64,000 nt of DNA from Porphyridium purpureum (lineage: Eukaryota > Rhodophyta > Bangiophyceae > Porphyridiales > Porphyridiaceae), in the NCBI GenBank assembly GCA_008690995.1, contig VRMN01000009.1, positions 310,001-374,000 on the forward strand, in the 5' to 3' direction. Of the stretch, positions 2,963 through 58,666 are shown piece after piece. The position numbers and the translations under genes are program-made. The notes below the pieces were generated by a model. The model worked only from the letters and a program-made list of their open reading frames with translations, was not told the DNA's origin and ran no database searches. The number at the start of each line of letters is the position of its first letter. Within the stretch, counting starts at the first letter, position 1.

Positions 2963-3035
2963 GGGTCTTTAGCTCAATTGGTAGAGTACGTCGTTCGCAT
3001 CGACGGGGTACCGGGATCGAAGCCCGGAAGATCCA
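2963..3035 (+). tRNA. tRNA-Ala(CGC), intronless
   Basis: It folds as a complete 73-nt cloverleaf. The acceptor stem 2963-2969 pairs with 3028-3034 and contains the G3:U70 wobble that identifies alanine tRNAs. The D-arm is 2972-2987 with GG at 2980-2981. The anticodon stem is 2989-2993/3001-3005 with loop TTCGCAT and anticodon CGC (2996-2998). The T-stem is 3011-3015/3023-3027 and the discriminator is A3035. The T-loop begins with A instead of the usual T. No CCA is encoded. It reads the GCG codon, common in GC-rich genes. A run of seven T follows immediately. Confidence 0.93.
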
Positions 3036-3037
3036 CA

Positions 3038-16343: not shown

Positions 16344-18290
16344 TTGCAGCCAGCCGTTAAGCGTTCGCGTGTGTACAGCTCCCCATTTGCGCCGCAAACC
16401 CGCGGTACAGTGACCCGACTCAATTTACTGAACACGAAGTACAGTGCTGCGTTCGCGCGATCTCGCTCGCGTCCCGACGCAAGGCGCAGGGCGCGGGAGT
16501 GGCCACGCAATTCGCGCATGCCGCAGTCGGCCCGCGTTCAACGCGCGGCTGTCACGCCCAGCACGCAAGCAAGCAGAATGGACGCCTGCACAGGCTTTGT
16601 CGCGAGCTCCGGGAGTGCTCGGAGCTGCCTCTGCGTCGGTGGCCCGCCGTCCAGAAAACCCGTGCGCTCGCCACTTGTGTGCTGCAGCTCAAACTCCGAC
16701 GCTGCTTCGTCCCGTGGGGCCGAGACGCAACCGGCAAGTGTTGAGGGTTGGGCAACAGACGGGAGCAAACCCAAAAACAGCAAGGAAAGTGATGGTGGAA
16801 ATGGCGCGCTGACACTTCTGCCTAGGCCAGAGAGGCCAGGTGCCAGGAAAGCAACACTTCGCGCTCCTCCAACTTTGAAAGTTCCGCGTCTGGGCAATGA
16901 GACCGACAGCGCTCAAGCGGATTCGTCTTCCAATGGGGCGCTTGCCGCGCCAAGGGTTGTATCAGCCACACCCGGCGCAGCACCTCGGACAGCAGCGCCA
17001 CCGTCACTCGCGCAGGTGCATAAAGTGCTCAAAGCGGAATTGGACGCGCTGTGTATGCACTTGGAAAGCGAGCGAGAGAAGCAGCACCTGCAGCTCATTC
17101 TAGACAGAGTGATAGAGGAGCTTGACGTAGACCGGGGAAATCGATTTGCTCATCACTCTTACGTCCCGGCACATATCGAAGCGCAGCAGTTGGGTGTGCT
17201 TAGCACGGCGGCCACGGCGCCGCAACGCGCGCGTCATTTGAGGCGTCTTTTACATGCTCTAGCATCCATTAGCGCCGATCTTGAAACCATGGTGGCTGCC
17301 ATGCTGTACTGTGCCGGTCTACAAGCGCATCGTCTCCAGGACAAGGTACCGCCTAACGTGCGTGATTCGCTCGCTGGTATTGACGAGCTCTTGCAGGACA
17401 AAGTGTGGCTGGACTCGCTCGGCTCGAGTTTCTCGGACCTGGATGACTCGAATGCACGTATTCTGCGCGAGTTCGTGTTCAGCGCTTCACAGGATCCTCG
17501 TGCCGTTGTGATGCACCTTGTGGACGTGCTTGTACAGCTCAAGAATATACACGAAGTACCATTGTTTCAGCAACATATTTTTGCACTCGAATGCCTGCAG
17601 CTATACTCGCCCGTGGCGCACTCTCTGGGAGTGGGCAAGGTAATGTGGGAATTGGAGGATCTTGCGTTCCGCGTGCTGTTTCCATCGAGCTACAAAAGTG
17701 TCGAAGAATGGCATCGCCAAATCTGGCGGGAAAGCAGCAAGCAACTCGAAACAGCGCGGGAGGAGTTCATGCACCATTTGCTGTGCCATCAGCCGCTCCT
17801 GTCGCTCGTGGAAGGTTACACGATCACAAGCCGCACGAAGAATTTGTTTTCAACGTTCAAAAAGATGCTGCGCTCCAACAAAAGAAAAGAAGAGATCCTG
17901 GACGTTGTGGCGATGCGCGTGATTGTGCGGCTGCGTCCAGATTTACGTGAGGACGCCTCTGCACAGGCGCGCGCTTGCAAAATAGTGTACGAGCAAGCTG
18001 TAGCACTGTGGGGAGCGGAAAATGAATGGCCCGGCCGGACAAAAGATTACGTGAGCGTCCCAAAGGGGAATGGCTACCAGAGTATCCACACAACGATCAC
18101 ACATCCTACTGGGTTCACGTTCGAGGTTCAGGTGCGCAGCGAGGAAATGCACATGCGTGCCGAGCACGGAGACGCTGGGCACGGCCTTTACAAAGGCGGC
18201 GGCACGCAGCGCGACTCGGTGCTCCGGTTTGCATCCGCCATCCAGGCCGAGAACATCGCGTGTATTTCTGTGCAAAAATTAAAGTGGTAG
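16344..18290 (+). CDS. RelA/SpoT homologue (RSH), plastid-type ppGpp synthetase
   Basis: A 648-residue protein. The first ~200 residues are Ala/Ser/Arg-rich and fit a plastid transit peptide plus linker. Residues about 270-450 occupy the place of the HD hydrolase domain, but the catalytic HDxxED block is replaced by LYCAGLQAHR, so hydrolysis is probably lost. The synthetase domain follows: TSRTKNLFSTFKKM (ATP site, near 493-506), ILDVVAMRVIV with the catalytic Asp, GRTKDYVSVPKGNGYQSIHT (about 563-582), and EVQVRSEEMHMRAEHG. It should make the alarmone (p)ppGpp, which tunes plastid transcription and translation. There is no TGS/ACT tail, unlike long bacterial RelA. Several upstream Met codons make the exact start uncertain. 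Confidence 0.85.
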   Translation: MQPAVKRSRVYSSPFAPQTRGTVTRLNLLNTKYSAAFARSRSRPDARRRAREWPRNSRMPQSARVQRAAVTPSTQASRMDACTGFVASSGSARSCLCVGGPPSRKPVRSPLVCCSSNSDAASSRGAETQPASVEGWATDGSKPKNSKESDGGNGALTLLPRPERPGARKATLRAPPTLKVPRLGNETDSAQADSSSNGALAAPRVVSATPGAAPRTAAPPSLAQVHKVLKAELDALCMHLESEREKQHLQLILDRVIEELDVDRGNRFAHHSYVPAHIEAQQLGVLSTAATAPQRARHLRRLLHALASISADLETMVAAMLYCAGLQAHRLQDKVPPNVRDSLAGIDELLQDKVWLDSLGSSFSDLDDSNARILREFVFSASQDPRAVVMHLVDVLVQLKNIHEVPLFQQHIFALECLQLYSPVAHSLGVGKVMWELEDLAFRVLFPSSYKSVEEWHRQIWRESSKQLETAREEFMHHLLCHQPLLSLVEGYTITSRTKNLFSTFKKMLRSNKRKEEILDVVAMRVIVRLRPDLREDASAQARACKIVYEQAVALWGAENEWPGRTKDYVSVPKGNGYQSIHTTITHPTGFTFEVQVRSEEMHMRAEHGDAGHGLYKGGGTQRDSVLRFASAIQAENIACISVQKLKW

Positions 18291-36543: not shown

Positions 36544-37635
36544 ATGGCAGCGTTTGTGACCGGCATGGGGGCGGCGCCGCGCTCGCAGATGCGCTCGGTG
36601 AGCGGGTCCGCGGTGTGCGTGCGATCGGACAGCGTGCGCGCGCCAGGCGCGCTGACCATGCGACTGGGCACCGTGAGCGGCAACAGCTCGCTGGACAAGC
36701 TCGGACTGGACAAGTTCCTTTCGGAGAGCAACAGGGCGTACACGCCGCGCGCCCAGCCGGGCTTCTCCAGCGAGTACGAGCAGATCATCTCCGCCACGTA
36801 CAAGCAGCTGTTCGGCAACGCCTACATCATGGACTCGGAGCGCGCCGAGATGGCCAAGCAGGAGAGCATGTTCCGTGACGGACAGCTCACGCTCAAGGAC
36901 TTTTGCCGCGCCCTCGCCAAGACCGAGCAGTACAAGAAGCGCTTCTTCGACTCTCGACCCTTGTATGGCGCCATCGAGCTCAACTTTAAGAACATTCTGG
37001 GCAGGACGCCAGATGGCCTCGAGCATTACCGCGCCAAGTCTGCTGTGTACGACACCAAGGGCTATGAGGCGTTCGTAGACGCGTTCTTTGATGACGGCGA
37101 GTACGATGAGGTGTATGACGACTACACCGTGCCGTTCTACCGCGGGTACAAGACGGAGGCCAACCTGTCCATGGCTGCGTTCACGCACTTTTTCAGAATG
37201 GTGCGCGGATCGTCCACGTCCGACAAGGCCAACCCCAACTCAATGCAGAAGGACATTCCGCTGAACTACTACGGGATCACCAAGACTCCTCTGGCCGTCA
37301 TCGCGCCGGGCGCGGCTGGCACGGCGTACACCGAGTCGTTCTCAGGAACTGGCTCATGGCAGAGCGGCAGGGCGGGCCTGAACGCCGCGCGCGTCGCCCT
37401 TGGCGTGCCGGCTACCGCGAACGGCAAATCGTTCCGCGTCGAGGTGACTGGCTACACGCAGCCCGGATTCGGCATCACCGCCGGTACTGCCGTCGGCAAA
37501 CTGTACAAGGCAAACAAGCTCTCCAGGTACCCGCGATCCAACAAGAGCTACGTGGTCGGCTTTGACGAGCTTACGCCTCTGTACCAGCGTATCACCAAGA
37601 ACGGTGGAACCATCGCGTCCATCACGCCATTGTAA
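36544..37635 (+). CDS. Phycobilisome rod linker, nuclear-encoded
   Basis: A 363-residue precursor. The transit peptide starts MAAFVTGMG; an early Phe is typical of red-algal and glaucophyte plastid import. Residues about 60-195 form the phycobilisome linker domain: YKQLFGNAYIMDSERAEMAK, FRDGQLTLKDFCRALAKTEQ, YGAIELNFKNILGRTPDG. Residues about 295-363 form the CpcD-like capping domain: SFRVEVTGYTQPGFG, with SYVVGFDELTPLYQRI and the closing GGTIASITPL. Linker plus CpcD domain in this order defines rod linkers that join phycobiliprotein hexamers. The protein should act on the thylakoid stroma surface, in phycoerythrin or phycocyanin rods; which one cannot be told. This gene is the main evidence for a red alga. 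Confidence 0.93.
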   Translation: MAAFVTGMGAAPRSQMRSVSGSAVCVRSDSVRAPGALTMRLGTVSGNSSLDKLGLDKFLSESNRAYTPRAQPGFSSEYEQIISATYKQLFGNAYIMDSERAEMAKQESMFRDGQLTLKDFCRALAKTEQYKKRFFDSRPLYGAIELNFKNILGRTPDGLEHYRAKSAVYDTKGYEAFVDAFFDDGEYDEVYDDYTVPFYRGYKTEANLSMAAFTHFFRMVRGSSTSDKANPNSMQKDIPLNYYGITKTPLAVIAPGAAGTAYTESFSGTGSWQSGRAGLNAARVALGVPATANGKSFRVEVTGYTQPGFGITAGTAVGKLYKANKLSRYPRSNKSYVVGFDELTPLYQRITKNGGTIASITPL

Positions 37636-41753: not shown

Positions 41754-42770
41754 ATGGCGCCGTGGCTGTCGGAACACGAAAAAGGGCAGATCGACGCCCT
41801 TGCGGGCCAGGAGCTGTCGGTGCGAGCCATTGCGAAGGCTCTGAAGCCTCGCCCAGATCGCTCGCGACCGTCCTATGCAACTGTGAGCCGTTATCTGGCG
41901 TCAAGGGGGCGCCGAATTGTCCGCAAGAAGCCAGGTCCGAAACGGCTTTTGAGTCGCAAATCGGAACGCCGCATCATTCGCTTCGTATCTGTTGATGCAC
42001 TGACGTCCGGACAGGTGGTTCACGAGCTGCACTTGCAGTGCTCGGCCAGGACAGTGCGTCGGACGCTTCAAGCAGCAGGCTTTCTTCGCTACAAGCGAGT
42101 CTCGCGGAAACCTTCGCTGTCGTCTGACAACATCAGGAAGCGTTTGGCGTTTGCCACCGCATTCATTGCGAAACCAATGGCTTTCTGGCATCAAGTGGTC
42201 TTTTCAGACGAGAAGATTTGGAGCTGCGATGGCCCATTCGGCTCCTCGCAGCGATGGGTCGACTGTCGCGCTAAGTCAAGTTCGTACGCCAGGCGTCAGC
42301 ACTCTGGAGGTGGCAAGGTTCACATGTGGGCCGGTATGTCCCTGCGCGGCCTAACAATGGCCGTCTTCGTCGAGGGTGGCTTGAATGCCGTGAAGTATCA
42401 ACAAGTCTTGCTGGAAGCCTTGCTTCCGTTCGGCCTGGAAATGTATGACTTCAATTTCACTTTCCAGCAAGACAATGCCCCGGCACATACGGCCAACTCG
42501 ACCAAGGCGTGGCTCGACGCACTCGGCGTCACTGTGCTGCCGTGGCCTGCAAGGTCTCCGGACCTTAACCCAATTGAAAACATTTGGGGCGTCTTGTCGC
42601 GCGTGGTTTACCGAAAATGCCGCCAGTTCGCACGCGTCGCAGAACTTAAGGCTGCCGTCCTTGCGGCGTGGGCGACCGAGGCCCAAAAGTACGTAGTTCC
42701 ACTGTTGGAGTCCATGCCTCGCCGTCTTCAAGCTGTACTAGACGTGCGCGGCCACCACACCAAGTACTAA
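41754..42770 (+). CDS. Tc1/mariner transposase, DD34E
   Basis: A 338-residue cut-and-paste transposase that excises and reinserts its element at TA sites. The N-terminal 110 residues hold paired-like helix-turn-helix DNA-binding modules (LSVRAIAKALKPRPD, ATVSRYLASRG) with GRRIVRKKPGPKRL between. The catalytic triad is in VFSDEKIW (first Asp), FTFQQDNAPAHTA (second Asp) and SPDLNPIENIWG (Glu). Exactly 34 residues separate the second Asp and the Glu, the DD34E signature of the Tc1 branch. Length is typical (about 340), and no break is seen. An in-frame TGA shortly upstream fixes the start at 41754. Confidence 0.97.
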   Translation: MAPWLSEHEKGQIDALAGQELSVRAIAKALKPRPDRSRPSYATVSRYLASRGRRIVRKKPGPKRLLSRKSERRIIRFVSVDALTSGQVVHELHLQCSARTVRRTLQAAGFLRYKRVSRKPSLSSDNIRKRLAFATAFIAKPMAFWHQVVFSDEKIWSCDGPFGSSQRWVDCRAKSSSYARRQHSGGGKVHMWAGMSLRGLTMAVFVEGGLNAVKYQQVLLEALLPFGLEMYDFNFTFQQDNAPAHTANSTKAWLDALGVTVLPWPARSPDLNPIENIWGVLSRVVYRKCRQFARVAELKAAVLAAWATEAQKYVVPLLESMPRRLQAVLDVRGHHTKY

Positions 42771-56673: not shown

Positions 56674-56987
56674 AAGAAGGAGCAGGGTGTAAGTGAAACA
56701 AAGCCTCATGACTAGGCGTTCCCGTTCGTGGCGGCATCGAATATGCCTGTAAAGCTCTTGGACAGCTAAGCTGATTTTTGTGAAAAGTAAATGTATTCTA
56801 CCGGCTCGATGCTACGCGGTCCGACCGTCTTGTCAAGCCAGCACGACCTCATCTCCGTTTGCCACTTGGGATCCTTGCCGGAGCGCGCATACGGGTGACG
56901 ACGCTTCACGCGCATTCCCCGGTTATTCACAAAAAAGCCCGAAAAATAAATTGCCAAAATTTGACGCAAAACATAAATACTCAACTT

Positions 56988-57004
56988 TATATAGTTAATT
57001 TTCC
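56988..57004 (+). promoter_or_regulatory. TATA box plus TTAATTTTCC element upstream of tRNA-Asn
   Basis: TATATA at 56988-56993 and TTAATTTTCC at 56995-57004, the same pair as upstream of tRNA-Ala. The second element ends 14 bases before the tRNA. Inferred Pol III upstream element. Confidence 0.45.
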
Positions 57005-57017
57005 ACCCCCCCAGCAC

Positions 57018-57179
57018 GCTTCCGTAGCTCAGCTGGTTAGAAACCTGAGATGGTTCCCGCCCTAATTGCGAAATGTCCAGAGAGAGCGTACGACTGTTAC
57101 TTGCTGCAAAGTGGCCATCGTACTTGAAGATAGAGGCCACCGGTTCGAGCTTCAATGTGCGAATTCCCGGTCGGAAGCG
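57018..57179 (+). tRNA. tRNA-Asn(GTT) with four apparent introns
   Basis: The ends form a perfect acceptor stem (57018-57024 with 57172-57178) with the Asn-type discriminator G57179. Between them lies a 74-nt cloverleaf broken by four insertions. D-stem 5' and loop: 57027-57039; insertion 1, 57040-57083 (44 nt); D-stem 3' 57084-57087. Anticodon stem 57089-57093/57118-57122; loop CTGTTA plus A57117, anticodon GTT at 57096-57098; insertion 2, 57100-57116 (17 nt), at the canonical 37/38 site. Insertion 3, 57123-57133 (11 nt), before variable loop AGGCC. T-stem 57139-57143/57167-57171; insertion 4 about 57151-57166 (16 nt) in the T-loop. Without them the sequence closely resembles plant tRNA-Asn (TAGCTCAG, TGGTTAGAGCG, CTGTTAA). 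Boundaries are uncertain by one or two bases where ends repeat. Confidence 0.85.
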
Positions 57180-57187
57180 GAAATTAA

Positions 57188-57193
57188 TTTTTT
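57188..57193 (+). terminator. Pol III T-run terminator of tRNA-Asn
   Basis: Six T nine bases downstream of the discriminator base. It supports the 3' end of a Pol III gene here. Confidence 0.8.
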
Positions 57194-58666
57194 GTAGCAG
57201 CCGAAGTGCGTGACAGCCACCCTCTGCGCCGTCACTGCGCATCAGCTTTTCTTTTGCACGTTGACCCTTGCGCGGAAAAGACACGTCCACGCAAACCCGA
57301 TCGCGTCATTGCGGTTCACGCGGCACCGCGTGTTTCACGTTTTCCATGTTTGTGGGAAAGATGTGGGCGCGAGATGATGCAGGCCTCACTGTGAGCCACC
57401 TGTGGTGGTGTGAGTGCGTGAATGTCTTCCTGAGAGGAACACGCGCGGTACAAGACGTTTTTGATTTGTCTGGCTCGGCAATGTTGCCGCCCAGAGCACG
57501 CGCGAGGCCTGCTCTGCCAAACGCCTGACTCTTTGGCTTGTACATGAGCGGTGGCGCTCGCGTGCACGCGGCTGATCATGACGAAGGGAGAAGGTCAGTG
57601 CTTGCAGTCTGACCAGGTGGCCAATCGAGTGCAAGAAGCTTGCTCAGTCGCAGCGCCAACGTTAAAGGAGTGAAACATAAGGGCCAGACTGAAAATATTG
57701 GGGATATTAAGCGGCGCTTGGCCGTTCAGCGTGTCTGTGCGTTGACCAAGACGGCGCCGCAGTCACAGAAACAGCTGGCACTCGCCGATGAGTCGCAGCT
57801 TTGATTCACAGAGATTGAAGGGGAGGCAAAGGCGCGCACGTAATTACCGTTTGGGGACCAATGAGTGGGCCAAGATGCTCAGCCACGTCGCACTAGGAGC
57901 ATCCTCATGAGTACTGCTGCTTTTGCGCGCGACGTGGTCGTTCTGGCTCTGAGTTTACGCGGTCCCATTTGGGCTTCCCTGGTCTGATAGTGTCTTGCAT
58001 GATACAATCAGCACTGCTTTCTTAAAAGCTAAAGAGGTGGAGGTACATGCGCACGAGCACAAGAGCATCGTACACGCTAAACCCAAGCTCGATCTGGACG
58101 CGAAATTATACAATGCTGAGACGTTGGAATAAAAGAATTGTTCCGACACGTGTAACTGTTGTGCAAAAATGCCAAATGATTACTCGTTCGAGACTGCACA
58201 TACGACGATACAAGTATCAGTGATGACATTCAGCACAAGAGCAGAAAGAGGACTTGGCTTCTGGACATGGTCAAGATGTGTTGCTGGCCGCCGGATGCAT
58301 CATCTGGAAAGCACGCTGGCAAAGAGTGAAGAATACCTTTGTTCAGGGCATACTGAGCGGCCTATTCTCGGCAGCTGATCGCTGGACTCTGCGCTGTGTC
58401 GCCGACAAACGCTAGCGAGTCGAGATCGACTCGAACTAGCACGCCAGGCGTCCGCTCTGGCACGGCGGAAAAGTCCCGGCGCAGACGGACCGCGGCTGCT
58501 TGCGGCGGGAAATGCGCATCCTTGCGGTACAGTGATTTGACATCAGAATTTTCATAGTGTACAGTGAGTGTGCGTCCGGCCACGTCCGCGCTCGACCCGC
58601 GTCGCAGCAAGCACGGCTGCGGGAAGGTTGTGCACTCTGCTGGGTAACACGGTGGTTGCTTCTCTG
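57194..58666. other. Intergenic region
   Basis: About 1.5 kb between tRNA-Asn and BMS1. Only short ORFs; no RNA gene recognised. The BMS1 promoter should lie at its right end. Confidence 0.5.

Follow-up and report, generated by a model that had tools for sequence, protein, structure and literature searches.

The question raised by this locus is whether 162 nt of Porphyridium purpureum DNA, in which pieces of a tRNA alternate with four insertions, make up a functional tRNA gene, and if so how the insertions would be removed. We analysed the window, by which we mean the whole stretch of 64,000 nt that contains the locus, and the best reading, which the analysis supports, is a tRNA-Asn gene that carries four intron-like insertions, three lying outside the canonical 37/38 site. 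Further, with a probability of about three in four (0.76) we take it to be a nuclear P. purpureum tRNA-Asn(GTT) gene with a TATA-type RNA polymerase III promoter, whose four introns would be recognised by BHB-like motifs and spliced out to leave 74 nt, the intron at 37/38 going last.

Structure of the interrupted gene

Five tRNA exons and four insertions span 57018-57179 on the forward strand, with a probable promoter in front and a probable terminator behind:

56988-57004, forward strand: upstream element TATATA-G-TTAATTTTCC, probable RNA polymerase III promoter, starting 30 nt before the gene
57018-57038, forward strand: exon 1, acceptor 5' strand, D-stem 5' strand and D-loop through position 20a
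57039-57082, forward strand: predicted intron D, 44 nt, site 20a/21; helix CTGG (57033-57036)/CCAG (57077-57080), 3' bulge AG^A
57083-57099, forward strand: exon 2, D-stem 3' strand through position 37, anticodon GTT at 57096-57098
57100-57116, forward strand: predicted intron AC, 17 nt, canonical site 37/38; its 3' end GTGGCC (57111-57116) alternatively pairs with exon 4
57117-57122, forward strand: exon 3, ATCGTA, 6 nt, positions 38-43
57123-57133, forward strand: predicted intron V, 11 nt, site 43/44; proposed helices GTGGCC/GGCCAC (57135-57140) and ATC (57117-57119)/GAT (57129-57131), 3' bulge AG^A
57134-57149, forward strand: exon 4, variable loop AGGCC, T-stem 5' strand ACCGG and T-loop through position 59
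57150-57165, forward strand: predicted intron T, 16 nt, site 59/60; T-stem as outer helix, TTCG (57144-57147)/CGAA (57160-57163), bulge TT^C
57166-57179, forward strand: exon 5, C60, T-stem 3' strand, acceptor 3' strand and discriminator G73
57188-57193, forward strand: T6 run, probable RNA polymerase III terminator, read from the sequence

Removal of the 44, 17, 11 and 16 nt gives a 74-nt tRNA-Asn(GTT) with discriminator G, and ARAGORN calls the joined 74-mer tRNA-Asn(gtt). The original prediction had placed a tRNA-Asn with four insertions here, and its coordinates, the four lengths, the 74-nt product, the anticodon and the discriminator are all exact. It had described the acceptor, anticodon and T stems as perfect; these are Watson-Crick throughout and so is the D stem, giving 21/21 stem pairs (acceptor 7, D 4, anticodon 5, T 5). 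That three insertions lie off the canonical 37/38 site also stands; the motif geometry suggests joints at 20a/21, 43/44 and 59/60 besides 37/38. Once the insertions are taken out, the 74-mer has the cloverleaf of a tRNA-Asn(GUU), although the MFE structure of the bare 74-mer differs from it. The spliced core has what we take to be a plant-like look. The gene is linear, and the order of a circularly permuted gene, with the 3' half upstream of the 5' half, was not found.

Detection of the locus and control by shuffling

The unspliced 162-nt gene was not detected by ARAGORN with introns allowed. The sole tRNA reported in the complete window, by ARAGORN and by Rfam with the gathering threshold applied, was tRNA-Ala(CGC) at 2963-3036. 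When Rfam was run permissively on 56900-57300, no tRNA matched, only three unrelated families, each below its gathering score. The forecast that standard tRNA finders would miss the gene was thus borne out for the unspliced form by both programs, and since both miss it, red-algal tRNA sets may lack members.

Both strands were scanned strictly for interrupted tRNAs, with insertions allowed but with conserved residues and flawless stems (acceptor, D, anticodon and T) demanded. This strict scan returned a single locus in the window, the tRNA-Asn, and none in any of 1000 dinucleotide shuffles. With G-U pairs permitted the locus was still alone, and 7 of 1000 shuffles contained a locus (7 loci in total). 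A looser scan, requiring the acceptor, T-arm and A-box residues only and run with no shuffle control, revealed two loci, the intact tRNA-Ala and the tRNA-Asn. No further interrupted tRNA was found in the window by these scans, and a scan for permuted tRNAs, likewise run with no shuffle control, gave none.

Predicted splice motifs of the D-loop, 37/38 and T-loop introns

The rule for the cut is that it falls after the second nucleotide of the bulge. A BHB motif is described, in excerpts of PMC3978253, as a 4-bp helix between two 3-nt bulges, with relaxed forms that lack one bulge or helix. We shuffled the letters of each intron alone 20000 times (single-letter shuffles) and scored the best of all joints yielding the same product.

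In the D intron the CTGG/CCAG helix is present unforced in the MFE fold of the whole precursor. A 4-bp Watson-Crick helix was reached by 195 of the 20000 shuffles, or by 1654 counting G-U, and the motif is classed as relaxed because its 5' strand carries two extra bases. The T intron likewise shows its TTCG/CGAA helix unforced in the whole-precursor MFE fold, with the T-stem as outer helix; four Watson-Crick pairs were reached by 100/20000 shuffles (1074/20000 counting G-U). Hence both introns have the 4-bp central helix and the 3-nt bulge or bulges at the cut sites, the D intron being relaxed on the 5' side.

In the MFE fold, 7 bp (GUUACUU/AAGUGGC) join the 37/38 intron to the anticodon; in the strict register this intron has no Watson-Crick pair and four pairs with G-U, which 1348/20000 shuffles equalled. 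The precursor as a whole folds mildly better than its shuffled versions (z -1.82; 8 of 200 shuffles as good).

Comparison of the joints with ordinary tRNA-Asn

To compare the joints with uninterrupted genes we used the 40-letter pattern TAGCTCAGYTGGTTAGAGCGNNNGACTGTTAATCNNNAGG, which spans the D, 37/38 and 43/44 joints and has AGG fixed in the variable loop. It was found uninterrupted in at least 120 prokaryotic stretches, and the 80 listed are bacterial. The matches listed for this pattern came to 166, with 66 distinct 74-mers, and ARAGORN called every one of the 166 tRNA-Asn; among these listed 74-mers, the most similar shares 59/74 positions with the spliced product. In a second sample, drawn from viral contigs with the variable and T loops left free, there were at least 118 matches, 85 of them distinct, and among the matches listed ARAGORN called 81/85 distinct sequences tRNA-Asn. 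Of the variable-loop lengths 3 to 17, 5 nt alone fitted in 82 of these 85 listed sequences, and the remaining 3 fit none. A smaller viral scan agreed, as 15/15 stretches matching the anticodon-variable region were tRNA-Asn. The text of the 5' exon matched six tRNA-Asp and one tRNA-Pyl among viral contigs (n=7), so exon 1 alone is not Asn-specific. Exact scans of the viral contigs with a longer spliced-like pattern, and with exon 1 plus the start of its intron, both gave no matches.

Judged by these samples, the text joined at the predicted D, 37/38 and 43/44 junctions reads as it does, uninterrupted, in ordinary tRNA-Asn. For the T-loop, TTCGAGC or TTCGAGT occurred in 63 of the 81 parsed tRNAs listed from the viral sample and TTCGATC in none, and the T-loop and variable-loop comparisons agree with the joints predicted by the BHB rule.

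Some other joints were considered and rejected. The T-loop joint TTCGA^TC would leave a product of equal length, and was discarded on the absence of TTCGATC from the 81 parsed tRNAs listed; the motif fits TTCGAG^C. A 12-nt variable intron (GT^A) fits the strict 5' bulge, but it leaves a loop of 4 nt where the sampled tRNAs have 5 nt. The variable-loop splits CGGCC and CTGCC also keep G at position 46, and here the AG^A bulge alone makes the choice.

The putative variable-loop intron and the proposed order of removal

The variable-loop intron does not follow the strict BHB rule, under which its central helix has 0 Watson-Crick pairs and one with G-U. A search with fewer constraints, in which the 5' register was free and six loop splits were tried, found GTGGCC-ATC...GAT-AG^A-GGCCAC, where the outer helix has 6 bp, the bulge 3 nt and the inner helix 3 bp rather than 4 bp. 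When both introns were shuffled, this motif was matched or bettered in 53 of 20000 shuffles. Its GTGGCC strand is the 3' end of the 37/38 intron.

The motif is absent from the global MFE fold, and both the T-stem and the 37/38 pairing are in competition with it; forcing it costs 6.6, 5.0, 3.7 and 4.7 kcal/mol relative to the MFE in the four precursor states compared. It should be noted that the spliced 74-mer, and the partly spliced forms from which the T intron is gone, do not have the cloverleaf as MFE either, and because this holds for the spliced product itself we regard the fold energies as a weak guide.

If the motif is real, its outer helix borrows a strand of the 37/38 intron, and the variable-loop intron must then leave before that intron does. 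We thus propose that a single precursor containing the 162-nt gene would be made from the upstream TATA-type RNA polymerase III promoter, and that a tRNA-splicing endonuclease would recognise BHB-like motifs also off 37/38. Its cuts at 20a/21, 37/38, 43/44 and 59/60 would free four introns, and ligation of the five exons would yield a normal tRNA of 74 nt. Having motifs of their own, the introns of the D-loop and T-loop might be removed independently, while the 37/38 intron would come out last, as reported in C. merolae.

Further we speculate, at somewhat less than even odds, that the 37/38 intron may act as an in-cis guide strand for the variable-loop motif and so enforce the order of removal, and that off-site multi-intron splicing would then be an old red-algal trait. 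If true, such splicing of tRNAs would belong to the red algae at large and not be a peculiarity of the extremophile Cyanidioschyzon.

Alternative explanations

Another reading of the locus concerns the variable-loop intron. The gene may have three introns only, the 11 nt being retained in the mature tRNA to give an unusually long variable region of 16 nt. This region is nearly all unpaired in the global MFE fold, and the variable-loop motif, as described, fails the strict rule and is energetically disfavoured; three introns is moreover the maximum reported for C. merolae in excerpts of PMC3978253. Against this, the 16 nt show no variable-arm stem, and the distinct Asn-type sequences listed have a 5-nt variable loop in 82 of 85 cases, with 3/85 fitting no length of 3-17. 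Exact removal of 11 nt at the AG^A bulge by the 6-bp helix leaves AGGCC, close to the AGGTC-type loop of tRNA-Asn, with the motif equalled in only 53/20000 shuffles. We hence consider retention of the 11 nt unlikely.

A tRNA-Asn decayed by insertions, with a working copy elsewhere, would account for four disruptions, which is an unusual number, and another Asn gene elsewhere in the genome is possible, since the scans here covered the 64,000-nt window. Random decay should however bring substitutions and deletions as well, and here all 21 stem pairs are intact, the D and T insertions sit at sites of BHB-like geometry, and the promoter-like element and the T-run are retained. The pseudogene fits poorly and seems quite improbable to us. 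Still far less credible is a chance assembly of tRNA-like pieces: flexible insertion lengths favour such matches, as the 7 positive shuffles in 1000 with G-U illustrate, but the strict rule gave none in 1000, and the Asn anticodon loop, the promoter element, the T-run and the splice motifs are all present though the scan did not require them. Overall we regard the tRNA-Asn gene with its four introns as real and probably functional.

Probable promoter and terminator

To investigate the putative promoter we searched both strands of the window with the pattern TATATAN{0,6}TTAATTTTCC, and obtained two matches only, at 56988-57004 before the tRNA-Asn and at 2917-2936 before the tRNA-Ala, where the element starts 46 nt ahead of its gene. 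The pattern occurred in 0/100 shuffles, a post hoc figure as the pattern was picked after comparing both genes. A T-run lies behind the tRNA-Ala too. The tRNA-Asn gene thus has an upstream TATA element of the C. merolae type and a T-run downstream. Inside the gene, the stretch TAGCTCAGCTGG is intact; it presumably corresponds to the A-box, and the T intron divides what we take to be the B-box stretch. A scan for bacterial promoters and terminators gave nothing, which is irrelevant for a nuclear gene.

The element TATATA-N-TTAATTTTCC could help to find other hidden tRNA genes of this genome. As a separate observation, the tRNA-Ala(CGC) at 2963-3036 has A in place of T at position 54, giving the T-loop ATCGAAG; A at this position is unusual in an elongator tRNA.

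Relation to known tRNA introns

Porphyridium belongs to another red-algal class than Cyanidioschyzon, and the nucleomorph genome of Guillardia theta is of red-algal origin. The original prediction held that multiple ectopic tRNA introns are established in C. merolae, and excerpts of PMC3978253 and PMC9602550 describe such introns. According to the former, tRNA genes of this alga carry up to three introns of 11-69 bp; according to the latter, three tRNA genes have three introns each. Its tRNA-Ile(UAU) has introns at 12/13, 37/38 and 53/54 (Soma et al. 2007, 2013, as cited in passages of PMC3978253 and PMC9602550), and the 37/38 motif is reportedly always the last substrate (excerpt of PMC3978253). 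The gene described here shares with those of C. merolae, as far as these two sources go in excerpt, the short introns in the D-arm, at 37/38 and in the T-arm with BHB motifs, along with a TATA-like sequence upstream and a T-stretch downstream. It differs from them in its four predicted introns against at most three, in the putative variable-loop intron at 43/44, and in the proposed dependence of the latter on the 37/38 intron.

Nucleomorph tRNA genes also have ectopic introns, up to three per gene (passages of PMC4090602; Guillardia theta is named in PMC3978253; Kawach et al. 2005, as cited in reviews), and the G. theta nucleomorph resembles the present case in its off-site and multiple introns. 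Many Guillardia nucleomorph introns are however without a defined BHB motif (excerpt of PMC3978253), whereas the D and T motifs are clear here. Archaeal tRNA genes have at most three introns (passages of PMC4033280, PMC4390854 and PMC8450103), and eukaryotic ones are said to be limited to one (passage of PMC8450103). Crenarchaeal genes (Pyrobaculum and others) resemble the one described here in that their BHB-type introns occupy many positions, the variable arm among them, and some crenarchaeal introns are removed in a required order (excerpts of PMC3978253 and PMC8450103). There, the exit of one intron lets the next motif form, in contrast to the present gene, where one intron would have to stay for the motif of another.

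That the combination of four insertions is extreme, as had been suggested, agrees with the maximum of three stated in these excerpts for red-algal, nucleomorph and archaeal tRNA genes. Four introns would be one above any tRNA gene that we found reported in them, the kind itself being already known. Among the papers listed, titles and abstract openings gave no description of a four-intron tRNA gene or of such genes in Porphyridium; Soma et al. 2013, the 2013 P. purpureum genome paper and subscription papers may mention them. The genome paper of P. purpureum CCMP1328 (22 Mb, 52 contigs; PMC6811547) does not contain the term 'tRNA' in its main text. The gene would thus be the most interrupted tRNA gene in the literature covered, from a genus outside Cyanidioschyzon and the nucleomorph, from which genes of this kind are reported. 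It would also offer a concrete substrate for investigating how a eukaryotic splicing endonuclease recognises sites off 37/38, and whether one intron can be needed for the removal of another.

Other features of the window

Protein-coding sequences in the window include nuclear eukaryotic Pfam types, namely the BMS1/TSR1 C-terminal domain, EMP70, a phospholipid flippase and the ORC5 C-terminal domain. The ORF at 36544-37635 encodes the phycobilisome rod linker LR1; its product (36544-37632) is identical at 363/363 residues to 7ezx_X1 and one residue off 6kgx_X2, chains from models of the Porphyridium purpureum phycobilisome under medium and low light (excerpt of PMC10682464). This identity marks P. 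purpureum as the host, and Cyanidioschyzon merolae was rejected on it; a search with glutamine synthetase pointed to no particular species. In a Pfam scan of nine other ORFs, eight were matched. The ORF at 41754-42770 has DDE_3 and Tc3-type transposase HTH domains and is probably a Tc1/mariner-like transposase, and 16344-18290 encodes a RelA/SpoT-type protein with an HD domain, for which plastid targeting seems likely.
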